Source of the DNA: Clostridia bacterium
GTDB taxonomy: Bacteria; Bacillota; Clostridia; Oscillospirales; CAG-272
NCBI GenBank assembly: GCA_017503285.1
Contig: JAFVTH010000026.1
Location: forward strand, 1-54,104
DNA length: 54,104 nt
Reading direction: 5' to 3'
The position numbers and the translations under genes are program-made. A model generated the notes under the pieces. That model was not told where the DNA came from and ran no database searches. It saw only the letters and a program-made list of their open reading frames with translations. This document shows positions 288-41,268 of this stretch, in pieces (positions within the stretch are counted from its first letter, which is position 1; every line of letters starts with the position of its first letter).

Positions 288-300
288 TAGTTTTTCAATA

Positions 301-340
301 AAAAATATCGACCCTGTTTTTACAAGGGTCGACTTTTTTC
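301..340 (-). terminator. Terminator of the lipid operon
   Basis: Inverted repeat TCGACCCT (308-315) / AGGGTCGA (325-332) with a 9-base loop. On the minus strand it is followed by TATTTTT, and on the plus strand by a T run, so it could work both ways. It lies 25 bases past the stop of the last gene in the leftward operon. Confidence 0.75.
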
Positions 341-357
341 TACATTATTTATATAGG

Positions 358-1344
358 TTAAATAAGCACGCCGTCGAGGCAAATGAAATTAACACTAGCA
401 AGGGACTCCATAGCTATAGACAAATAGTACTCTTTCTCGTTGAAAGCTAGCTTTACTGTCCTTGTAGGATATAAATTAGTATTGATTTTTGCCGGTATGA
501 AGCTATCAATTGTATTATCAAGCTTAAAAATTGCTTCCTTTTTTGTCCACAATGATAGCAGATCCAAAAAGCTTTCTGCGTTTTCTCCATCACAAATAAC
601 GTGATTTCTTGAAGGATTCAAGGCGCTATGCTCTTTTATCTCCTCAATATCAACACCGATATCATGATGGCTAACTGCCACGGCAACCATTTCATTTGTA
701 TGAGATATGGAGAAAAAGCAGCTTGGCATGCTTGGCTTGCCTCTTTTATCCTTTTTAACCTTAGAAAGCGCTTGCTTTTTGCCTAGATATTCAGTTAAAG
801 CATAATCTAAAAGGCCATATGCACATCTTTTTTGCTCAATTGACGAATTGTTTTTAAGCTTTTTAATTTCTTCAAGTGCTATTTTAGGTAGCTTTTTAAA
901 ATTCTTGAATCTTTCAACGCTACAAGCATAAACATCTACATGGCTAAGACCTGACGCAATTTCCTTTCTTAGATCATCTAGCTGTGAACTTTTATGCTCT
1001 CCGAAAACACATTCATTTGCAAAATGCTCGCAATTATTGTGTAAAAAGTGATAGCCCTTCTCTCCTATTCGGGAAAGGGCATTTTCTATAATTTGCTGGT
1101 TTGAAAATTTTTTCTTAAGCTCTTTTTTGTCAAAATCAGCAGCCTCGGCAAAGCGACCCTTCAAAAAATCCTCAATATCAGTTTCGTATACGCAAACAGA
1201 TGTTGGATCAACCCTTGGGTTAACAACGCTATCCCCAAATTGCACAACTGTATTTTCGCTAACACAAATAGCGTAGTGATAAAAGCTGCCGGATTTTACA
1301 CGAACCATATCACCGGGCTTTATTTCCCTAAAGGACCACTTCAT
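358..1344 (-). CDS. LRAT-domain / 4'-phosphopantetheinyl transferase fusion protein
   Basis: This 328-residue protein carries two domains. Residues about 8-115 look like an LRAT (lecithin:retinol acyltransferase, permuted NlpC/P60 fold) domain: a His in the FYHYAIC segment (H23) and the nucleophile Cys in NNCEHFAN (C105). Residues about 138-328 look like an Sfp-type phosphopantetheinyl transferase, with FSISHT (211-216), GVDIEE (230-235) and WTKKEA (266-271), the last two carrying the Mg-binding acidic residues. The second domain should convert apo-carrier proteins to the holo form. Its likely targets are the ACP just upstream (4-base overlap) and the carrier domain of the AMP-ligase in the same operon. 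LRAT relatives move acyl chains between lipids or onto amines, or hydrolyse them; the substrate here is unknown. It is the last gene of the operon. Confidence 0.75.
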   Translation of the reverse strand: MKWSFREIKPGDMVRVKSGSFYHYAICVSENTVVQFGDSVVNPRVDPTSVCVYETDIEDFLKGRFAEAADFDKKELKKKFSNQQIIENALSRIGEKGYHFLHNNCEHFANECVFGEHKSSQLDDLRKEIASGLSHVDVYACSVERFKNFKKLPKIALEEIKKLKNNSSIEQKRCAYGLLDYALTEYLGKKQALSKVKKDKRGKPSMPSCFFSISHTNEMVAVAVSHHDIGVDIEEIKEHSALNPSRNHVICDGENAESFLDLLSLWTKKEAIFKLDNTIDSFIPAKINTNLYPTRTVKLAFNEKEYYLSIAMESLASVNFICLDGVLI

Positions 1345-1586
1345 TTACTTTGACCTTCGATATAGTCAATAACGCCGCCTACGGTTTCAAAATCGTTCAT
1401 ACCTACGCTTTCAAAGCGAACAGAAAAGTTTTCCTCAATTGCGATAATCATATATAACATACCAATAGAGTTAAGTCCAAGCTCCTCAACGAGCTTTGTG
1501 CTCTCTGTCATGGTATCAAGTCCGTCCTCGCCATTTACCATGGCAAAAACCTCTTTAAGCTTTTCAAAAATCACTTCTCTTGACAT
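1341..1586 (-). CDS. Acyl carrier protein
   Basis: This is an 81-residue acyl carrier protein of the PP-binding family. The phosphopantetheine-accepting Ser is Ser40 in ELGLNSIGM, where the usual DSL is NSI. The rest fits the four-helix carrier fold (acidic helix II, IAIEENFSVRFE, and a C-terminal FETVGGVIDYI). An ATG 6 bases further upstream would sit almost on the AGGA sequence; the ATG at 1586 has AGGA seven bases away, so I chose it. The gene overlaps the phosphopantetheinyl transferase gene by 4 bases and follows two acyltransferase genes. It is probably a dedicated carrier rather than the housekeeping fatty-acid-synthesis ACP, because no fab genes are nearby. Confidence 0.85.
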   Translation of the reverse strand: MSREVIFEKLKEVFAMVNGEDGLDTMTESTKLVEELGLNSIGMLYMIIAIEENFSVRFESVGMNDFETVGGVIDYIEGQSK

Positions 1587-1609
1587 AATCATTTCCTTTT
1601 CAGGTTGAA

Positions 1610-2296
1610 TTATTTTTTAAGATTGTTCTCGTAATATGCTTCAAGCTCCTGCTCCTTATCGTGCAGGTACTCACTAACCTTGTTAACATCCTTAAGAGTT
1701 GGTATACCACCGCATACGTCCTCGAGAAAAATCGGTTCTCCAACGATCATTTTTTCGCGCTGGTACCACTTTGTCTTTTTAACAATGTAAACAGGGATAA
1801 CCGGCACCTTGTTCATAATAGCAAACAAGGCAGCGCCACCCTTAAACTTTTGCACCTCTGCCTTTTCATCTTGATTAATTTTTCCCTCTGGGAAAAGGAC
1901 AAGAAGCTTATCAGAGGTTAAAACGTCTGATACATTGTGATATGTGTCAATAGTAACATTTTCTCTGTCTACAGGAATGCAGTTAACATTTTTGAAGAAA
2001 AATGCGCTAAGCGGCTTTTCAAAAACCTCTTTCATAGCAAGAATCCAACGTCTTCTAAATGGAAAGGCAAACTGTATTCTTACGCAGTCCATAGCTCCAA
2101 TATGGTTAGAAATAATAAGAGCGCCCTTGAACCTTTTCTTTTCTCCAAGTCTAATGATTTTAGGCCTCATTATAAGCCACATAGGAATAAAGCCGGTTAT
2201 CTTGACAAAATCATAGATAAAGTACTTAAAGGAAAAAAGCTTATACTTTTTTACCTTTTTTCTTGGCTTTTTCTTCTTTTCTTCGTTCTGTTTCAT
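1610..2296 (-). CDS. PlsC-type acyltransferase (1-acylglycerol-phosphate acyltransferase family), copy 1
   Basis: This 228-residue protein has all the blocks of the PlsC/AGPAT family: NHIGAMD (catalytic H65 and D70), VNCIPVDRE (104-112), FPEGKI (135-140) and VPVIPVYI (164-171). The family transfers acyl groups from acyl-ACP, acyl-CoA or acyl-phosphate to a lysolipid hydroxyl. The first 18 residues are very rich in Lys and Arg, probably for membrane contact. The gene begins 56 bases inside the end of the upstream acyltransferase gene; no later Met leaves an intact domain, so I keep this start although its SD (AAGAG) is weak and close. The neighbouring AMP-ligase and ACP suggest that the acyl donor is a carrier-bound fatty acid. 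The acceptor cannot be told from sequence. Confidence 0.85.
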   Translation of the reverse strand: MKQNEEKKKKPRKKVKKYKLFSFKYFIYDFVKITGFIPMWLIMRPKIIRLGEKKRFKGALIISNHIGAMDCVRIQFAFPFRRRWILAMKEVFEKPLSAFFFKNVNCIPVDRENVTIDTYHNVSDVLTSDKLLVLFPEGKINQDEKAEVQKFKGGAALFAIMNKVPVIPVYIVKKTKWYQREKMIVGEPIFLEDVCGGIPTLKDVNKVSEYLHDKEQELEAYYENNLKK

Positions 2297-2903
2297 CTCT
2301 TAACTCAATAATTTTATTTCTCATATATTCGGTGAGAGTTTTGATATTCTCGCCTATTTCAGCATCCTTATCAATAATATCCTCGGGGTATATCTTCTTG
2401 CCTATCATAACGCGGGCATTACCCTTGCCAAAGTAGTTACCATCTGTATAGACAGGAACCACAGGTGCGCCGGACAAAATTGCAATATATGCTGCGCTCG
2501 GCTTGAATTCCAGAGGAGTAGGCTCCCCTTCCACAGGAAGCCTTGACTCAGGATATATTTCAATAATTCCACCCTTTTTGAGGATATCAACAGACTCCTC
2601 GATAAAGGCGAAGTTTTTGCCCTCACGGCTGATTTTAATGCCGTCAAGCGCGGTCAAAAACCACTTAAGGGGCTGTGACTTAAACAAAATGTCAGCCATT
2701 AAGCATCTAATATGAGAACCGATAAAGGTTTGCTGAATCATTGCAAAATCATAAAGTGTATTATGATTTGCTACAATGATTGCAGGTCCCTCTAAGGTTC
2801 TGTTTTGAGAAGCCTCGTCCTCGTAATAATACTTTGGTCTGAAGAAAACCATTTCAAGAGGATAAGCAGTATACTTGAAAAAGCCACAGAAAAATCTACT
2901 CAT
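2241..2903 (-). CDS. PlsC-type acyltransferase, copy 2 (divergent)
   Basis: This is a second 220-residue PlsC-family protein. It shows ANHNTLYD (H47, D52), GIKISRE (88-94) and APVVPVY (146-152). The third block reads YPESR (117-121) rather than the usual FPEG, so the acceptor or phosphate-binding part of the site differs from copy 1. The C-terminus is a charged tail of Lys, Glu and Arg. The start codon shares one base with the stop of the transporter gene (TAATG), which points to translational coupling. Two different acyltransferases in one operon would allow two successive acylations, or acylation of two acceptors. Confidence 0.82.
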   Translation of the reverse strand: MSRFFCGFFKYTAYPLEMVFFRPKYYYEDEASQNRTLEGPAIIVANHNTLYDFAMIQQTFIGSHIRCLMADILFKSQPLKWFLTALDGIKISREGKNFAFIEESVDILKKGGIIEIYPESRLPVEGEPTPLEFKPSAAYIAILSGAPVVPVYTDGNYFGKGNARVMIGKKIYPEDIIDKDAEIGENIKTLTEYMRNKIIELRDETERRKEEKAKKKGKKV

Positions 2904-4909
2904 TATACTATATCAACCTTGTTCATATCCAACTGCATAATTGTAAGTCCTACTACATTCAATGGGAGTAATGGCAAAAGTATGCTGAATATGATTGGAA
3001 TAATTTTATTATTTACCTTAACGCCCTTAGCCTCTGCTTCTCTTTCAATAACCTTATAGAATCTAAGGATTGTGTAAATTGAGAAGAAAGGAATAAGTGC
3101 GGAAAGAAGGTATGTAAGAATTGCGCTACCGCCGATTAGCGCTTCCTTTTTGCAATCCTTGAAGGATTTAAGCTGGAAGCCATTCCAAATGAAGCCGAAA
3201 ACACCTGCAGAAAGAACCCAGAAGGCTGCGTTTCTGAATGGGATTTCCTTTTCCTTTGCCAAGGCAGGCTTTTCTTCATTAAGAATCGGTGTAATATCAA
3301 GGCTTGGATTATGCTTCTTAAGCTCAACCGCGACAACATCTGCAGAAAAGTCCTTAGGCATCTTAAAGCAAGCTATAAAGCCAAGAACGCACATAATGCA
3401 AACAATGATTGGAACTAAAAGCGCGCCAAGGCTAAACACCTCGCCGTTCTTAAGAGTACCTTCAAGTATAAGCTCCGCATCCGTATCAATGCCAATCCAG
3501 TCACCAACATTAACAGGCATCTCAAGTTTGATAGAAGCAAGCACCGCGTGTGCTGCATTATCACAATAGCCATCTACATGGGCAAACGCACCTGTTTTGC
3601 CATTGAAGTAGAACATTTTAATATTCTCATAAACAAGACTTGATGCAATAGCACCGATAATAGATGTGGTAACAGCCTGTGCAGCAAAATACATTGCCGA
3701 ATGGTTTTGTCTTGTAAGTTTTTCCTCCACGCTTGAAACCTGAGCAGGAACAAGAAGAGGCATCATAAAGAACGCACCTATGCCCCAGCTGCCGACAAGA
3801 CCGCCAACAATTGAAATTGTCAATTGAAGAGGCTTGTTGCCGCCTGTTACAAAGAGGCTGGCAAGGTCGAAGGACAAAATTGCGATTGCAAAGGCAATAA
3901 GGCAGGTTTGATAGGTAAATCTAACGCCTTTTTTCCTCTTAACCTTTTCGAAAAGATACAGCATAACGGGAACTGGCGCAAAAGCAAATGTTTCTACTAT
4001 AGCCATTTCATTTGGGTTAAAGCCCATACCACCTACTATAAGTGAGTTCATAGAGGTAAGGAACATTTGTAGTCCAAAGAAGGCTGTACAATTTACAATA
4101 AGCCAGGAAAGGAAAACCTTGTTGCCAAATGTAACCTTAAGGCTTTGTACAAGTGTTGGCTGCTCTTCAATAAAGCCTTCCTTTTCTGGATAGCCATACT
4201 TTTCGCCCTCTTTAATCATAAAGAGAGGAATAAGCATTGTACACATAAGGATAGATCCAACGATTGCAAGTGTATCAATGTGCATATTTGCACCACCAAG
4301 AATAACAGGAACAAGTGCATAAACCAATGCATAAACGATTGTATCAAATACAGCCTTGTAGCTGGAAACTCTAAGTCTTTGACCCTCGCTATCGCAAACC
4401 TGTGAAAGGCTACCGTAGAAGGCGATAAGACACATTGTATATGTGCTAAAGAAAATTAATGCACAAGCAGTAATCCAAATTGTATTTGTAAGCTGTGCGT
4501 TAAATGCTTGGTCAGCATTGGAAATGTCGAATATCTTTGAACCAATCGGAATCCAACAGCCGATGTAGCTTAGCACCATTGGAATAAAGCAAATTAAAAT
4601 TGGCGGACGGCGTCTGCCCCATTTTGTGTTAAGTGAATCCGTAACCTTGGCAAACGGAATATCAATAAGACCATCAAATGCCTTAGAAACGAACCACAAA
4701 ATTGGGAAAATCCAAGGGATAATGTGGATAAAACCACCTGCTATTGCCATAAGCTCCTTATTGTCAGCAGTTGAAGCAAATAGCATTGTCGGGTTAATCG
4801 CATCTGTAAAGTATGCACCCATTAAAATCATCATAAGATTTGGACCTAAGCCGGACATCGCATATACGACTTCTTTCCACTTCTTATCTAAGCTTCTTAC
4901 CTTTGTCAT
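2903..4909 (-). CDS. GPH/MelB-family MFS transporter with DUF4234-like C-terminal domain
   Basis: This 668-residue polytopic membrane protein starts with EVVYAMSGLGPNLMMILM and contains the KWGRRRPPI loop, both typical of the glycoside-pentoside-hexuronide (MelB) branch of the major facilitator superfamily. An unusually long loop of roughly 65 residues precedes the last helix of the MFS core. After about residue 555 there is an extra region, FWVLSAGVFGFIWNGFQ to QLDMNKV, with three or four predicted helices and an Ile-Tyr-X-X-X-Arg-Phe-Tyr-Lys pattern; it resembles DUF4234. Family members move sugars, but eukaryotic MFSD2A, a MelB relative, moves lysophosphatidylcholine. In an operon with acyltransferases and an acyl-activating enzyme, a lipid substrate is a reasonable inference. 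SD AAGGAG lies well placed before the ATG. Confidence 0.82.
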   Translation of the reverse strand: MTKVRSLDKKWKEVVYAMSGLGPNLMMILMGAYFTDAINPTMLFASTADNKELMAIAGGFIHIIPWIFPILWFVSKAFDGLIDIPFAKVTDSLNTKWGRRRPPILICFIPMVLSYIGCWIPIGSKIFDISNADQAFNAQLTNTIWITACALIFFSTYTMCLIAFYGSLSQVCDSEGQRLRVSSYKAVFDTIVYALVYALVPVILGGANMHIDTLAIVGSILMCTMLIPLFMIKEGEKYGYPEKEGFIEEQPTLVQSLKVTFGNKVFLSWLIVNCTAFFGLQMFLTSMNSLIVGGMGFNPNEMAIVETFAFAPVPVMLYLFEKVKRKKGVRFTYQTCLIAFAIAILSFDLASLFVTGGNKPLQLTISIVGGLVGSWGIGAFFMMPLLVPAQVSSVEEKLTRQNHSAMYFAAQAVTTSIIGAIASSLVYENIKMFYFNGKTGAFAHVDGYCDNAAHAVLASIKLEMPVNVGDWIGIDTDAELILEGTLKNGEVFSLGALLVPIIVCIMCVLGFIACFKMPKDFSADVVAVELKKHNPSLDITPILNEEKPALAKEKEIPFRNAAFWVLSAGVFGFIWNGFQLKSFKDCKKEALIGGSAILTYLLSALIPFFSIYTILRFYKVIEREAEAKGVKVNNKIIPIIFSILLPLLPLNVVGLTIMQLDMNKVDIV

Positions 4910-4928
4910 AATACTCTCCTTGTCTTAA

Positions 4929-6872
4929 TTACAATCTGTCCTGTAAATACAGGCAGAAATCATTAATTGTTGCAATAGATTGATCCTCAACTATTGGGAA
5001 CGGTACGTTAAAGTCCTCTTTAATATTTTCAACAAGCTGGAAATATGAAAGAGATGTACCACCAAGCTCAAAGAAAAAGTTGTGTGTGTACTGGCTTTCG
5101 GAAAGCTCCTTTTCTAAAACCTCCTCAAACAGAGCCTTTACCTTTGCTCTTAGCTCCTCGTTAATGTTTTCTTCCCTTTCCTCGTCCTCAAATTCCTCCG
5201 GATAAATAAGCTTCATCTCTTCGCTTGCAATCCTTTGGCGGATTTTATTGCGATTCAGCTTAAACTCACTATCGGTCATAAGAGGCTCGAAGGTAAAGTT
5301 AACATCGTCAATTAAGGAAACATATCCATTTTTCTCAATTGTCTTGAAAACCTCAGCCTTAATGCCTGCGATCTTCTGCTTTGAAAAATATCTGTTGACG
5401 CTAATTAGCAAAGTAGATTTTATTTTTCCCTTCTTCTCTACTGCAAGCATACAAACATTTGTGTCAGGAATTGAAAACTTATCTTCAATCATGCTTGGAG
5501 AAATGTTTTCGCCCGAGGCACCAACAATCAAGTCATCACTTCTGCCAAGAATGTATACATGCCCCTTTTCGATTTTTGCACCGTCTTGAGTGCAGAACCA
5601 GTCATTTTCTGTGTATTTGGTAGTGCCATCCTTGGTGATAATTTCGGAAGCAATAGATTTTGACTGAATTTCCAAAATGCCCTCACTATTAACTCGACAC
5701 TTGACAGAGCCAAAGGGCTTTCCAACAGAGCCACTATTTAGGTATTTTGTTGAATCGCTAAGCTCAACACAGGTAATACCAATTTCGGTCATACCATAGC
5801 CGTTTGCCATACGATAACCGATGCCGTTAAAGAAGCTAAGGGTTTTTGTGGTAACAGCGCCACCACCGGAAATAAGGAATTGAATGCTATTTCCAAAAAG
5901 GTTTTCTCTTATTTCCTTAAATGTCCTTTTTGCAAAGCAACGACCCAAGGCGGGTGAATTTTTTTGTAATGAGTTAGAAAGATTTAATCCCTTTCTAAAT
6001 TTCTCAACAAGCTCCGGCCTTCTTTGAGCCATAAGCTTATTTGCGCTCTTTCTCATCCTTTCCCATAGCATAGGAACGGCGAAAATGTGTGTGACCTTGT
6101 GCTTTTTAACGGTGTTTATAATAGTTTCACCGGATAGGTTGTTTAGTAGTACAAAGGTCCTCGAAAAGAACGCAAACCACATAAAGCAAGCAACCAAGCC
6201 AAAAACGTGGTAAAATGGCAAGAATGTAAGCTGCTTTAGTCTACCCTCATAATGAGCGTGGATAAGCTTTGACCTTTCAACAATGCTTTGTGAGTTATAA
6301 ATCTGCTCACAAATAGCCTTACCATTATAAACGCAAAGCTTAACATTGTTTGATGAGCCAGAGGACATAAGAATGATTTTATCAGCCCACTGCCCTAACG
6401 TACAGGCAGGTGTATCCTTATCAATATCCTTGTAGTTTATTGTATTTACTGAAAACTCCTTAGAGTCTGTAATTACAGCCCTTACCTCATTGTCCTTAAG
6501 TATGGATTCCAAAACATCTCCCTCAAGGCGCTTGTTCATAAGAAGAGGTACGTTGCCACATTTCAAAATAGCCCAAAAAACCTCAACCCACTCAACAGAG
6601 TTATCCATATACATACCGATAATTGAGCCATATGGTGCATCTATTTTTGATTTTAATGAATATGCAGTTTTTAACACATTTTCATTAACCTGTCCATATG
6701 TATATTCATATATTTTATTTCCATCTGTGGTTTCAAACATAATGTTGTCAGCCATGGAAAACATAATTTCATAAACAGATTTAAAGGTTTCTTCACTAAC
6801 CTTTAACTTAGACATTTGCTGCTTGACAAAGGCTCGCATTGTCTTGCAGGTGCCTATACCGTGTATTTCCAT
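4929..6872 (-). CDS. Acyl-AMP ligase with C-terminal carrier domain
   Basis: This 647-residue protein belongs to the ANL (AMP-forming acyl/aryl-CoA synthetase) superfamily. The P-loop is MSSGSSNNVK (169-178), followed by NGYGMTE (357-363), GRSDD (443-447) and the C-terminal catalytic Lys in LNRNKIRQR (K543). Residues about 570-647 form a carrier domain with phosphopantetheine Ser607 in ELGGTSLSY. The enzyme should activate a carboxylic acid with ATP and load it on its own carrier or on the free ACP encoded later in the operon. The LPFYHVFGLVACFMWF segment looks like a fatty-acid-type ligase. It is the first gene of the operon, with SD GAGGA before the ATG and a promoter at 6924-6952. Confidence 0.85.
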   Translation of the reverse strand: MEIHGIGTCKTMRAFVKQQMSKLKVSEETFKSVYEIMFSMADNIMFETTDGNKIYEYTYGQVNENVLKTAYSLKSKIDAPYGSIIGMYMDNSVEWVEVFWAILKCGNVPLLMNKRLEGDVLESILKDNEVRAVITDSKEFSVNTINYKDIDKDTPACTLGQWADKIILMSSGSSNNVKLCVYNGKAICEQIYNSQSIVERSKLIHAHYEGRLKQLTFLPFYHVFGLVACFMWFAFFSRTFVLLNNLSGETIINTVKKHKVTHIFAVPMLWERMRKSANKLMAQRRPELVEKFRKGLNLSNSLQKNSPALGRCFAKRTFKEIRENLFGNSIQFLISGGGAVTTKTLSFFNGIGYRMANGYGMTEIGITCVELSDSTKYLNSGSVGKPFGSVKCRVNSEGILEIQSKSIASEIITKDGTTKYTENDWFCTQDGAKIEKGHVYILGRSDDLIVGASGENISPSMIEDKFSIPDTNVCMLAVEKKGKIKSTLLISVNRYFSKQKIAGIKAEVFKTIEKNGYVSLIDDVNFTFEPLMTDSEFKLNRNKIRQRIASEEMKLIYPEEFEDEEREENINEELRAKVKALFEEVLEKELSESQYTHNFFFELGGTSLSYFQLVENIKEDFNVPFPIVEDQSIATINDFCLYLQDRL

Positions 6873-6923: not shown

Positions 6924-6952
6924 ATTATATCATAATATATGCGCGTATTCAA
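6924..6952 (-). promoter_or_regulatory. Promoter of the lipid operon
   Basis: The minus strand shows TTGAAT (6947-6952), a 17-nt spacer and a perfect TATAAT (6924-6929), about 50 bases upstream of the AMP-ligase start. This is a housekeeping sigma-A type promoter. The rest of the 337-base gap between the AMP-ligase and the SASP gene is AT-rich and contains the SASP control elements. Confidence 0.75.
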
Positions 6953-7209: not shown

Positions 7210-7413
7210 ATGTCTAAGAACAATATCACTGTTCCAGAAGCTAAGGCTGCTCTTGATAAGTTCAAGATGCAGGCTGCTAGCGAAGTAGGCGTAACTCTCA
7301 ACCAGAGTGGCTACAACGGTGACCTTACTGCTCGTCAGGCTGGTTCTATCGGTGGTCAAATGGTTAAGAAGATGATTGAATCTTACGAGAATTCTATTAA
7401 GAACCAGAGATAA
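7210..7413 (+). CDS. Alpha/beta-type small acid-soluble spore protein
   Basis: This is a 67-residue alpha/beta-type SASP. These proteins coat spore DNA and hold it in an A-like form that resists UV, and they are degraded by the Gpr protease on germination. Family features seen are the ASEVG segment (the Gpr cleavage region), GYNGDLTARQAGSIGGQMVKK (reported here only as a region, residues about 38-58) and a C-terminal amphipathic helix. SD ATAGGAG sits six bases before the ATG. It is monocistronic, with a sigma-G-like promoter and its own terminator. It is the strongest proof that this organism makes endospores. Confidence 0.93.
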   Translation: MSKNNITVPEAKAALDKFKMQAASEVGVTLNQSGYNGDLTARQAGSIGGQMVKKMIESYENSIKNQR

Positions 7414-37436: not shown

Positions 37437-39707
37437 TTATTTACATTTTACACTAAGCTCGCCCTTTTTGATAGACACACTTGCCATTGTGATGTTGCCA
37501 CGAATTTCAAAGATAATTGCGTGTGCAAGCTTATCCTCAATTTGTGTTTGAATGTATCTTCTCATATTACGAGCACCGTATTTCTTGCTGAAGGACTGCT
37601 CTGCGATAAAGCTGCAAACCTCGCTTGTGTAGCTAAAGTCAATGTTTCTTTCGCTAAGCGCCTCCTTAAGGTCCTTAAGCATAATGTCAGCAATGCGAAC
37701 GAAATCATCCTTTTCAAGAGAACGGAAGGTGATAACCTCGTCAATTCTGTTGATAAATTCAGGGCGAAGGAAGCCGGAAAGCGCCTTCTCTGTCTTTTCC
37801 TTTGCAAGCTGATTTGTATCAGAGGAAAAGCCTGCCTGAGATGATGTTACAGTTGCGCCTGCGTTGGTTGTCATAATGATAACTGTGTTTTCAAAGTTAA
37901 TAAGTCTGCCCTGTGAATCGGAAATCTTACCCTCATCAAGGATTTGAAGAAGGATATTAAGAACGTCCGGGTGCGCCTTTTCAATTTCATCGAAGAGAAC
38001 AACGGAATATGGGCTTCTTCTAATCTTTTCTGTAAGCTGTCCTGCCTCATCATAGCCGACATAGCCCGGAGGAGAGCCTATAATCTTTGAAACGGAATGC
38101 TTTTCCATAAACTCTGACATATCAAGCCTTACAAGGTTGTCAATGGAGTTAAACAGCTCCCTTGCAAGAGTTTTTACAAGCTCTGTTTTACCAACGCCTG
38201 TTGGTCCTGCAAAGATAAAGGATGCAGGGCGCTTTTTAACACTAACGCCTGCTCTGTTTCTTTGGATTGCGCTTGTTAGGGACTTAACCGCCTCGTCTTG
38301 ACCAACGATTCTAGACTTAATTCTTTCCTCAAGACCGGCGAGCCTTTCAAACTCCTCCTCGGAGATGTTGCTTGCAGGAATACCTGTCCAAATTTCAATA
38401 ACGCCTGCAAGGTCCTGCTTTGTCATAACCGTGCCATCGCACTCCTTATCAAGCCTTTCCTTGTCGAGCATTAGGGTGGATTTCTCAGTTTTTAGCTCTG
38501 CTAATGCCTTGTAATTGCTCTCACTTGCATCCTCGGCAATTTTGGCGTTTATAGCCTCTGTCTTTTTGTCAACCTCGGCAAGCTTTTCAATGACCCTGTG
38601 TCGCTCATTTATGTGCGGAGAGTGTAAAACGATATGTGAGCAAGCCTCATCAATCAAGTCTATTGCCTTGTCCGGTAAGAACCTGTCTGTTATATATCTT
38701 TCACTCATTATAACGGCGCTTTTTGCCATTTCGTCAGAGATTTTTACACCGTGGTATATCTCGTAGTAATGCTTAATGCCCTTTATCATTTCGATACACT
38801 CGTCAATTGTAGGCTCTTCAACCTTTACAGGCTGGAAGCGCCTTTCAAGAGCTGCATCCTTCTCGATATATTTTCTATATTCCTTAAGAGTTGTAGCACC
38901 GATAACCTGTATTTCGCCACGGCTAAGTGCAGGCTTTAATATATTTGCGGCATTCATACTGCCCTCAGAGTTACCTGTGCCAACAATATTATGAATTTCG
39001 TCAATAACGAGGATAATGTTGCCTGCCGCCTTAACCTCCTTAAGAAGACCGTTGATTCTTGACTCAAACTGTCCTCTGAACTGAGTGCCTGCAACAAGTG
39101 CAGTTAGGTCAACAAGATATATCTCACAATTCTTTAGCTTATATGGAACATCGCCACTAACAATTTTTTGGGCAAGAGCCTCTGCAATTGCAGTTTTACC
39201 TACACCCGGCTCGCCTATAAGGCATGGGTTATTCTTTTGGCGACGGCTAAGGATTTGGATAACCCTTTCAAGCTCTCTTTGTCTACCAACAATTCTATCA
39301 AGCTTGCCGTTTAATGCGTCTTGTGTAAGGTTGTGGCAGAAGGTGTTAAGATGCTTTCTTTCATCCTTCTTCTTTTTGTCGCCATCCTTGCTTTCCTTTT
39401 TGCCCTGCTCCCCTGTTGAGAAGCCTGCATTTTTCATAAGCTTAGAAAAGTCAATAGTAGGACCTTCCTCCCCATCCTCGTCCTCGCCGTTTTCGGAGAG
39501 TGTAGGAAGCATCTCACTAAACATTTTTTCCATATTTTCAAGCTCTTCCTCGGTAATGCCCATCTTTGTCATCATATCGTTGACAGGCTTAATACCAAGC
39601 TCCTTTGCGCAAACGAGGCATAGTCCCTCCTGCTTTTGCACATTGTTTTCAAGCTTCATTATATAAACCGTTGCCGGTCTTTTTTTGCACCTTGCGCACA
39701 TTTCCAT
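37437..39707 (-). CDS. clpE: ClpE-type AAA+ unfoldase
   Basis: This 756-residue Hsp100 protein has an N-terminal four-Cys zinc motif (CARCKKRP and CLVCAKEL), which marks ClpE rather than ClpC. Two AAA+ modules follow: Walker [10 protein letters not shown] (residue about 163) and GPTGVGKTE (about 497), with Walker B VIDEIH and LFDEIEKAH, and [12 protein letters not shown] in the second. It unfolds proteins, usually for ClpP. Firmicute clpE genes are often controlled by CtsR, but I see no GGTCAAA repeat near this start. Only 18 bases separate it from the CvpA-family gene upstream, so it depends on transcription from that operon. SD AGAGGAA precedes the ATG. Confidence 0.9.
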
Positions 39708-39725
39708 CTTATGTTTCCTCTTGTA

Positions 39726-40463
39726 CTACCTCTGTATTAGGGTTGAAATCCAGCCTAACACATTTAATTTATTGAAAAATCCTACTATTAAGGATTTATC
39801 TATCGTTTCTCTGTCCAAATAGCCCACGGTAAACGGACCTATATAATTTGAAAGCGCATATAAGCCAAGGCTAATGCCCCACAAAACAAGGGCAGCTATA
39901 ACCACACCTATAACAAAGCCCAAAAATCTGTTTGCTGACTTAATGCCCTCGAAGCAGGTAAGCTTGTCAAGAAGCGGAACAATAAGGCTCAAAATAATAA
40001 GCGCTATAAGAAATACACCTATTACGGCAATAATGGAGCAAATCATATTTGACATAGCCCCACCAACATTTTCGCTAAGCGATGGGATAACAGAGGTTTT
40101 GCCCTCTGCAAGGCTATCGAAGTCAGCCGAAAGCTGCTCTATATCTGCACCAAATTTTACTAGAATGCTGTTGTAAAAATTACTTTCGTTGCCGTCGTAT
40201 AAGGTAAAGAAAATGCTTGCTGTCTGCCCGTTTGACTCACAGAACGAGGTTAGCGAGCTGCCAACCCAGCCAATAATTGCATTTTTGAAGAAAAGTGATG
40301 CCAAAAGATTTGCAACAGGCACCCTTAATACTAATGCTAAAACAACGGAAATTATGAGCTTACACGAGTCAAGCACGCTTCTGAAAAAGCCGGTAACGGT
40401 AAACTTGATAATAATGATCACGGCAATAACAAGCATTGCTATATCAATAATTATATTTCCCAT
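39726..40463 (-). CDS. CvpA-family membrane protein (second of a pair)
   Basis: This 245-residue protein has the CvpA/colicin-V-production-protein layout. An opening helix (MGNIIIDIAMLVIAVIIIIK) is followed by TGFFRSVLDSCKLIISVVLA, a soluble loop of about 70 residues and two further helices (VIGVFLIALIILSLIVP and NRFLGFVIGVVIAALVLWG). GGAAAGGAG precedes the ATG at 40463, so the 17-codon longer ORF is rejected. Its upstream neighbour is a related protein of similar length, and clpE follows 18 bases after its stop. The cellular role of this family in Firmicutes is poorly known; links to division and envelope functions have been proposed. Confidence 0.82.
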   Translation of the reverse strand: MGNIIIDIAMLVIAVIIIIKFTVTGFFRSVLDSCKLIISVVLALVLRVPVANLLASLFFKNAIIGWVGSSLTSFCESNGQTASIFFTLYDGNESNFYNSILVKFGADIEQLSADFDSLAEGKTSVIPSLSENVGGAMSNMICSIIAVIGVFLIALIILSLIVPLLDKLTCFEGIKSANRFLGFVIGVVIAALVLWGISLGLYALSNYIGPFTVGYLDRETIDKSLIVGFFNKLNVLGWISTLIQR

Positions 40464-40483
40464 AAGCTCTCCTTTCCTTTTTC

Positions 40484-40524
40484 TAAAAACAGGGACTGTA
40501 CCTGTTATACACAATACAGTCCCT
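40484..40524 (-). terminator. Intra-operon terminator between the two CvpA-family genes
   Basis: AGGGACTGTA (40491-40500) and TACAGTCCCT (40515-40524) form a perfect 10-base-pair stem with a 14-base loop. On the minus strand GTTTTTAG follows. It would reduce, not abolish, transcription of the second CvpA gene and clpE. Confidence 0.7.
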
Positions 40525-40533
40525 ATAGTTGCT

Positions 40534-41268
40534 TTATTTTATTGCAAAGCCCTTAACCCACTCCCAGAAATCGTCCTTAAAGAACTTGACGATAACTGTA
40601 TTGTTAACATAATCCATATTGAAAATGTTTGGATAATACGAATAACCGAACTCAAATACCTTTTCGATTGCAAGGGACACAAGCATAGCGATAAACGCAG
40701 CCATAATTGCACCGATAAGCATACCCAAAATAACATTGAGTGTTTTAACAATTGCAACCTGTGCAGCCTTGTTAAGCAAGAAGCCTACAAGTAAGAAAAC
40801 AAGCTCAGCAACAATAAATATTGCTACAAAGGCTATAACAACACCAATAAGCAATGCGAATTGTGTACCAAGAATATCAGTAAATTCCTCAACAACCTCT
40901 ACGCTTGCAGGCTCTTCATTTACGAAGTGAAGCCAAAGCTTGTCCGTTGTTTCCTGGTCAAGCCCGGATGTAAGAAGGTTAATAAACCAGTTTGGAATAC
41001 CGTCAACTATTGTGTGTAGGGCATATGTGCCGTTAGATTGAATGGTAGACTCTAGCAAGCCTCTAACTGTGCGCTTACCCCAATCAAGAAAGAAGGCGTT
41101 ACTAATAACCTTTCCAAGAGGCGTACAAAAGATGATCGCCACAAGGGGTGCAAGAATAGTTTTGACAAGAGCCATAAGTGAACGAACAAAGCCACGAATG
41201 GCATAGCGTATCACAAAGAAAAGGCAGATAGCTACAATAACGATATCGAAAATTAAGCTAACACTCAT
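40534..41268 (-). CDS. CvpA-family membrane protein (first of a pair)
   Basis: This 244-residue protein has the same layout as its downstream neighbour: N-terminal helix (LIFDIVIVAICLFFVI), RGFVRSLMALVKTILAPLVA, an outside loop (residues about 60-125), then two more helix groups (FALLIGVVIAFVAIFIVAE and NVILGMLIGAIMAAFIAML) and a C-terminal aromatic tail. The two are clearly paralogues and not identical copies. The promoter at 41301-41329 and SD AGGAGG are strong. Confidence 0.82.
   Translation of the reverse strand: MSVSLIFDIVIVAICLFFVIRYAIRGFVRSLMALVKTILAPLVAIIFCTPLGKVISNAFFLDWGKRTVRGLLESTIQSNGTYALHTIVDGIPNWFINLLTSGLDQETTDKLWLHFVNEEPASVEVVEEFTDILGTQFALLIGVVIAFVAIFIVAELVFLLVGFLLNKAAQVAIVKTLNVILGMLIGAIMAAFIAMLVSLAIEKVFEFGYSYYPNIFNMDYVNNTVIVKFFKDDFWEWVKGFAIK

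Follow-up and report, generated by a model that had tools for sequence, protein, structure and literature searches.

What can a bacterium do with an operon that encodes an acyl-activating ligase, a transporter, two acyltransferases, a carrier protein and an enzyme in which a thiol acyltransferase is fused to a carrier-activating domain? The question is raised by six closely spaced open reading frames (ORFs) on the minus strand, at positions 358–6872, which open contig JAFVTH010000026.1 of a Clostridia bacterium (GenBank assembly GCA_017503285.1), a stretch of 54,104 nucleotides analysed as a whole and referred to below as the window. In E. coli, the transporter, AMP-forming acyl activator, carrier and PlsC acyltransferase of the LplT-Aas system act as one unit in the re-acylation of lysophospholipids. 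We suggest, tentatively and with about as much doubt as confidence, that the operon is a cassette for acyl activation and transfer in the salvage or remodelling of exogenous lipids, a split LplT-Aas-like arrangement to which an LRAT-type thiol acyltransferase has been joined. What we observe are the genes, their catalytic motifs, their co-inheritance and, in relatives, the FakA-like, FakB-like and hydrolase genes that accompany them.

Gene products and catalytic residues

The first gene of the operon, LIG1, encodes an AMP-forming acyl ligase that ends in its own carrier domain (Pfam AMP-binding, 3e-39; PP-binding, 1e-7). Residues E363, D430, R444 and K538 are kept in 106 of 106 family members and the carrier Ser607 in 103 of 106, counts that include both loci L145 and L160, whose LIG1 are identical. 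Most relatives carry a second ligase, LIG2, which is a FadD-like acyl ligase of ~505 residues (five examples scanned) and sits between PlsC2 and the gene for the free-standing acyl carrier protein (ACP). Both acyltransferases score above the cut-off of the Pfam PlsC model (PlsC1, 1e-17; PlsC2, 6e-22); the (N/S)Hx4D motif is present in 93 of 94 PlsC1 and 89 of 89 PlsC2 family members, and an FPEG-like motif in 83 and 88 of these, respectively. The best NCBIfam match of PlsC1 is the Aas-type model PRK08633, at 2e-12, which is below its cut-off. Elsewhere in the same genome (L065:6551-8422), a family 8 glycosyltransferase is fused to a PlsC-type acyltransferase.

The long transporter matches Pfam MFS_2 at 3e-28 and shows 13 hydrophobic segments in a crude scan, with those at 597–615 and 639–657 lying beyond the usual domain. 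A profile of 27 sequences, made of the long and the shorter transporters together, had MFSD2A as its best solved relative at a weak E of 4e-5 (25.9 bits), followed by plant SUC1 at 7e-3, and a five-row profile of the long transporter only had no solved relative at 0.01. MFSD2A has a role with lysolipids. The long transporter also matches an NCBIfam glucuronide transporter model (6e-6), and the short transporter of a relative's operon matches the GPH family and MelB. No LplT model matched the long transporter in the Pfam and NCBIfam scans, whose libraries were not checked for having one.

The free-standing ACP matches Pfam PP-binding (1e-6), with the attachment Ser present in 76 of 76 family members. 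Separate PlsX, ACP and PlsC genes exist in the genome; given that other ACP, the one in the operon is an extra one. The last protein opens with an LRAT domain well above the Pfam cut-off (8e-18, 65.3 bits against 24.3), the match beginning at residue 7, and the profile of the whole family, in which LRAT is fused to a phosphopantetheinyl transferase (PPTase), finds both Sfp (5e-10) and PLAAT3 (3e-9) among solved structures. His23, Tyr98, Asn104, Cys105 and His107 are present in 79 of 79 sequences, an invariant His and Cys standing in the motif NCEHF. We take PLAAT3 to work with an H-H-C triad; at the place of its second His, as taken from the alignment to PLAAT3, the 79 sequences have Gln in 52 cases, Ala in 24, Glu in 2 and His in 1, and the predicted active site is not a standard PLAAT active site. 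The third triad residue may be dispensable in LRAT, as a passage of PMC3142127 indicates.

That 76 of the 79 proteins have Gln or Ala in place of the second triad His would also suit a different role for the LRAT domain, that of a thioesterase or proof-reading enzyme acting on a mis-acylated carrier, and of no acyltransferase at all. The fusion of LRAT to the PPTase and the overlap of the ACP and LRAT genes agree with this, as does the phospholipase activity of PLAAT relatives described in part of PMC4624172. LRAT is nevertheless kept in three LIG2-less loci without a free ACP, and we consider such a role very unlikely.

The PPTase half falls below the cut-offs of both Pfam (ACPS, 6e-4, 20.2 bits against 25) and its best NCBIfam model (AusB, 5e-8, 32.6 bits against 225). 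The motifs G(V/I)D-E and WxxKE, which presumably mark PPTases of the Sfp type, are present in the window's protein as GVDIE at 230 and WTKKEA at 266. Applied strictly, the two-motif pattern fits 30 of the 47 LRAT proteins of at least 250 residues; among the 17 misses, nine are shortened to 280–286 residues, that of L140 is truncated where its sequence stops, and the remainder may depart from nothing but the pattern itself. In the proteins of 280–286 residues (L076-L080, L082, L086, L088 and L097) the PPTase half is shortened and motif-less, and the LRAT residues are intact. The last 19 residues of the LRAT-PPTase protein are hydrophobic in a crude scan.

Distribution, co-inheritance and gene order

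An earlier note on this DNA, made from the sequence, had treated the six genes as a unit that should be inherited together and had proposed looking for the same gene order in other Clostridia. In a family sample of 146 genomes, the window's included, LIG1 occurs in 11 and LRAT in 12, and the two are found together in 11 of the 11 genomes with LIG1 (hypergeometric p ~1e-15, with kinship ignored and the window included). The query of the LRAT search was the window's protein, and distant LRAT proteins would escape it. The twelfth LRAT genome, G034, has no LIG1 and holds a remnant (locus L044) with LRAT-PPTase, ACP and a LIG2 that is cut short. At E 1e-60, LIG1-like genes are found in 24 of 394 genomes of the order and in 2 of 398 of the phylum. 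The cassette is patchy but conserved in Clostridia, and its genes are co-inherited; the first ground for refutation that the earlier note had given, a lack of co-inheritance in relatives, does not apply.

A wider scan covered one genome each of 84,980 named species, from which the best 80 of 300 LIG1-related stretches were taken. The taxa given in their titles are Clostridia, Clostridiales, Ruminococcus, Oscillospiraceae, Lachnospiraceae, Ruminococcaceae and Christensenella, apart from two entered simply as 'bacterium', and any organ printed there is an animal gut or rumen site. Together with nine loci found via LRAT, which raise the LRAT count, and the window itself, they make up 90 loci that were scored with one profile per role. 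L041, which is one contig with L071, was dropped from the 90, L044 was excluded for having no LIG1, and neighbour cluster c4 was ignored as it was judged to consist of antisense shadow ORFs.

The order is kept across these 90 loci. Written out in full, the run is LIG1-(long MFS)-PlsC1-PlsC2-LIG2-ACP-LRAT-(PPTase)-hydrolase-FakB-(second transporter)-FakA-hydrolase, and it is present whole or in part: PlsC1 is in the run at 87 loci, PlsC2 at 83, LIG2 at 68, ACP at 71, LRAT at 71, PPTase at 45, a hydrolase at 56, FakB at 55, FakA at 51, the second transporter at 25 and the long MFS at 14. For the best 80 of 300 taken separately, the counts are 77 for PlsC1, 73 for PlsC2, 60 for LIG2, 61 each for ACP and LRAT, and 51 for FakB; 19 of these 80 have no LRAT in the run, 13 being cut by the sequence end, two (L087 and L140) having LRAT further on and four (L116, L126, L138 and L144) being without it. 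The window has a short form that ends after LRAT-PPTase. Gene order is preserved in relatives that are ~40% identical. Protein distances correlate with those of LIG1 at 0.83 for PlsC1, 0.86 for PlsC2, 0.87 for LRAT, 0.79 for ACP and 0.65 for LIG2, against shuffle maxima of 0.12–0.27, figures obtained with no unlinked control gene and of which kinship may explain much.

Sixteen further LIG1-like places came from 14 of the 22 other genomes of the order with LIG1 (besides the window's and G027), from one genome of the phylum and from a second copy in G031. At ten of these places cassette genes lie alongside, and L156, L157, L159, L160, L161 and L166 are window-like. A second type, FakB-FakA-transporter-LIG1-PlsC1-hydrolase, is found at four loci (L155, L158, L164 and L165), and G031 carries both types (L042 and L155). 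The divergent LIG1 relatives of L151 and L152 lie within frames of at least 1105 and at least 922 residues that run off the contig end.

Could these be ordinary lipid genes that adjoin by chance and share no pathway? PlsC, ACP and acyl ligase are common families, and six of the 16 further LIG1-like places, divergent ones, are without the neighbours. Chance grouping is nevertheless contradicted by the conservation of gene order in 90 loci, and co-occurrence and the distance correlations of 0.65–0.87 argue against it as well, so that we find it scarcely credible.

LIG2 is present in 72 of the 88 loci scored for it, including the window's nearest relatives L071, L072 and L073, and absent in 16, which amounts to at least nine changes on a quick LIG1 tree. 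The 88 exclude the second-type loci L155, L158, L164 and L165 and those loci that end before the LIG2 place, and the states of L156, L157, L159, L160, L161 and L166 were assigned by hand. In the window, which is without LIG2, only 17 bases lie between PlsC2 and ACP. No LIG2 ortholog was found elsewhere in the window's genome, which is 74.7% complete and leaves the absence unproved; the best unlinked ligase, on contig C19, scores 233 bits on the LIG2 model. A LIG2-less group far from the window (L047, L156, L157 and L166) has ACP in 4 of 4 and LRAT in 3 of 4, the contig of L166 ending just after ACP. Since ACP is kept without LIG2 at L047, L074, L075, L139, L156, L157, the window and others, it would there have to receive its acyl chain from LIG1 or from some unlinked enzyme.

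The window's copy could instead be a partly degraded cassette, in which the loss of LIG2 would have deprived ACP and LRAT-PPTase of their acyl chains. The presence of LIG2 in the three nearest relatives speaks for this, and so does the remnant in G034. However, all remaining frames in the window are open and their catalytic residues intact, and the absence of LIG2 in 16 of 88 loci, over at least nine changes, with ACP and LRAT retained in the distant LIG2-less group, argues against degradation, which we regard as improbable.

Fak and hydrolase genes in relatives

Where the long transporter is absent, the run in most relatives goes on into hydrolase, FakB-like and FakA-like genes, an extension that consists of alpha/beta-hydrolase, DegV/FakB-like, GPH-type transporter and FakA-like genes. 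The hydrolases are esterase-like alpha/beta hydrolases with hydrophobic N-termini. The FakB-like genes match the DegV model at 7e-59 and the FakB1 model at 3e-33, and the FakA-like genes match the YloV subfamily model at 7e-148, above cut-off, and the FakA model at 5e-111. Of the 14 runs that include the long transporter, 0 have FakB, versus 55 of the 76 without it; at LRAT loci with a visible next gene, the corresponding counts are 0 of 7 and 52 of 56. Nine of the 14 long-transporter runs are followed by 1,500 bases or more, and for five the sequence stops within 500 bases of the run, which leaves their downstream side out of view. The long transporter and the Fak module almost exclude each other, as if one pathway could be supplied by either route.

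The extra genes that recur in at least 24 loci are those for the hydrolase, FakA-like, FakB-like and zinc-ribbon proteins. Genes for small zinc-ribbon proteins are a recurrent feature immediately behind the cassette (L048:3892-4867; cluster c3 in 24 loci). Members of cluster c7 (L042, L049, L116 and L121) have, by eye, a paired CxxC at their start, the L049 member being without a Pfam match.

The window's operon has no Fak genes. Its genome does contain three FakA-like and three DegV genes outside the operon; as candidates for the operon type they were rejected, the best FakA reaching 568 bits versus an operon median of 897 and the best FakB 230 versus 547; at 74.7% completeness, this absence too is unproved. 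In the same genome, FakA-like, PlsX, FakB-like, GNAT-like, ACP and PlsC genes stand in a row at L064 (G000:C7:5000-20000).

Proposed pathway and alternatives

The occurrence of Fak-like genes and alpha/beta hydrolases in the same run points to an exogenous lipid or fatty acid. Salvage or remodelling is further favoured by the conserved order of the 90 loci, the intact catalytic residues, the second operon type with its Fak and hydrolase genes, the Aas-type match of PlsC1, MFSD2A as the best solved relative of the transporters, the near-alternation of the long transporter with the Fak module, and the extra ACP. In the pathway that we propose, the substrates, the direction of transport, the coupling of carrier to LRAT and the product are all inferred. 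The Sfp-like half of the LRAT fusion would convert the LIG1 carrier domain and the free ACP to the holo form. LIG1 would adenylate a fatty acid and load its own carrier, and in the window's genome LIG1 or the unlinked C19 ligase would also load ACP. The MFS_2 transporter may import an amphiphilic acceptor, e.g. a lysolipid, on which PlsC1 and PlsC2 would place acyl chains, while the LRAT domain may form an acyl-Cys105 thioester and hand the chain on to another hydroxyl or amine group. A more specific version, in which LRAT, equipped with its own PPTase, takes the acyl chain from the dedicated ACP rather than from a phospholipid and N- or O-acylates an undescribed lipid using exogenous fatty acids, is speculative and in our opinion rather unlikely.

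Several observations weigh against salvage or remodelling. LIG1 is a divergent protein that, among curated models, fits MenE best and not Aas. The curated matches of the transporter are sugar carriers, and that to MFSD2A is weak. In the one operon tested (L091), the Fak-like proteins fall below the curated cut-offs for FakA (372 versus 975 bits) and FakB1 (115 versus 350), and L118, a locus with the long transporter, carries Fak genes at another place on the locus. Carrier and LRAT can also part company, with LRAT but no free ACP at L106, L131 and L141, ACP but no LRAT at L126 and L144, and neither at L116 and L138. No cassette gene adjoins LIG1 at L151-L154, L162 and L163, L151 and L152 being cut by the contig end; from these places it follows that LIG1-like enzymes also work elsewhere. 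Finally, dedicated carriers that come with a PPTase are met more typically in biosynthetic systems than in salvage.

The main rival builds on such a biosynthetic logic, which is also apparent in the pair of ligases, the pair of separate carriers and the PPTase built into the cassette. The operon would then make a particular acylated or secreted lipid, e.g. an N-acyl or multiply acylated one: LIG1 and, in relatives, LIG2 would load two different acids on two carriers, PlsC1 and PlsC2 would O-acylate and LRAT would N-acylate, the transporter would export the product, and Fak and the hydrolases would merely supply acyl chains. LRAT-like enzymes include N-acyltransferases, according to a section of PMC7387801, and the patchy distribution in family, order and phylum is in keeping with this rival. 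On the other hand, no headgroup, glycosyltransferase or condensation gene is seen among the neighbours recurring in at least 24 loci (smaller clusters being unannotated). We see in it a serious possibility, although one that we would sooner doubt than accept.

Salvage or remodelling of exogenous lipids is the simplest model, and the one to which we give somewhat more weight. The earlier note had raised it in the form of a self-contained pathway that is not an ordinary biosynthetic cluster. The salvage part gains from the hydrolase, FakB-like and FakA-like genes that relatives' operons add, but depends on putative substrates; self-containment is less well supported, with the LIG2 of the nearest relatives absent and no Fak genes in the operon. 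The note's alternative, a novel acylated lipid, may also hold. Its view of the setting holds, with no fab, polyketide synthase or non-ribosomal peptide synthetase gene among the 37 window proteins scanned. An ordinary fab or polyketide setting was accordingly rejected for these 37 proteins, several short ORFs lying outside the scan.

We found no description of the cassette's gene set in the open-licence library that was searched, subscription literature being outside the search. Gut and rumen Clostridia live amid dietary and host lipids, and the cassette may represent a gene set for lipid uptake beyond FakAB. If LRAT-PPTase uses acyl-ACP, the LRAT family would be extended from phospholipid-dependent to carrier-dependent acyl transfer.

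Layout and surroundings of the operon

All six ORFs that the earlier note had placed at 358–6872 are there, with domains assigned by Pfam (Table 1), and their junctions are, as it had described, overlaps or short gaps: from LIG1 to LRAT-PPTase, a 19-base gap, a 1-base overlap, a 56-base overlap, a 17-base gap and a 4-base overlap.

Table 1. Coordinates of the operon's genes, signals and the junction at which most relatives carry LIG2
Feature	Position	Strand	Details
LIG1, AMP-forming acyl ligase with C-terminal carrier domain	4929..6872	-	647 aa; Pfam AMP-binding, PP-binding
Long MFS_2 (GPH-type) transporter with C-terminal extension	2903..4909	-	668 aa; Pfam MFS_2
PlsC1 acyltransferase	2241..2903	-	220 aa; Pfam PF01553, (N/S)Hx4D
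PlsC2 acyltransferase	1610..2296	-	228 aa; Pfam PF01553, (N/S)Hx4D
Free-standing ACP	1341..1592	-	83 aa; Pfam PP-binding, attachment Ser
LRAT-type thiol acyltransferase (~1-135) fused to Sfp-like phosphopantetheinyl transferase (~150-328)	358..1344	-	328 aa
Promoter-like site TTGAAT-17-TATAAT	6924..6952	-	site scan and core in relatives
Terminator: hairpin 307-333 (11 pairs, one bulge) and U-rich tail	298..333	-	folding, scan
PlsC2/ACP junction, LIG2 position in most relatives, empty here	1593..1609	-	17 bases

The promoter and the terminator that had been proposed were both recovered. For the candidate promoter, scan evidence by itself is weak, as the first 10,000 bases, an AT-rich region, contain 41 sites versus 26.9 expected; a TTGA..-TATAAT core stands at the same place before LIG1 in the close relatives L071, L072 and L073. 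The terminator hairpin is strong (-18.5 kcal/mol, z -5.9) despite a scan count at chance level (8 sites versus 7.8 expected).

Beyond the end of the operon, positions 1–290 of the window look like an rRNA-operon leader, with no rRNA in view and two near-perfect sigma-70 promoters on the minus strand, at 166–194 (12/12) and 259–287 (11/12). A matching leader is found in L071, whose contig also ends there, and L072 is without it. On the other side, a small acid-soluble spore protein gene (7210–7413) is divergent from the operon. Further into the window, at 37437–41268, two adjoining CvpA-like (Colicin_V) genes lie next to a ClpB-like AAA gene.

Comparison with known systems

The operon has the same four kinds of component as LplT-Aas, and PlsC1 best matches an Aas-type model, if below cut-off. 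It differs in that ligase and PlsC are on separate ORFs, that there are two PlsC genes and that LIG1 has its own carrier domain; in addition, the transporter is of the MFS_2 type, and ACP and LRAT-PPTase have been added. Because ligase and PlsC are unfused, the operon is no member of LplT-Aas.

The LRAT domain, with its invariant His and Cys, resembles the LRAT/PLAAT enzymes and LnsA of S. aureus, the latter being related by superfamily. PLAAT enzymes have a C-terminal membrane anchor; here, the PPTase domain takes the anchor's place and an ACP is encoded alongside. For LnsA, part of PMC7387801 gives a predicted signal peptide, whereas the LRAT match in the window's protein starts at residue 7.

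Gut Clostridia also have fatty acid amide clusters (OaaA, OaaACP and OaaC), which consist of a free-standing adenylation enzyme, an ACP and a condensation domain, as outlined in portions of PMC13142362. The pairing of an adenylation enzyme with an ACP in gut Clostridia is common to both; as a candidate for the present operon such a cluster was rejected, there being no condensation domain among the 37 window proteins scanned.

FakAB, the fatty acid kinase system of Gram-positive bacteria, serves exogenous fatty acids. FakA-like genes are in 51 of 90 runs and FakB-like genes in 55 of 90, which brings the cassette close to this system; in contrast, the operon of the window is without both, and the cassette also adenylates acids onto carriers. 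AasS of Vibrio, an acyl-ACP synthetase, is described as recycling exogenous fatty acids; the present arrangement differs from it in having dedicated carriers and acyltransferases beside the ligase.

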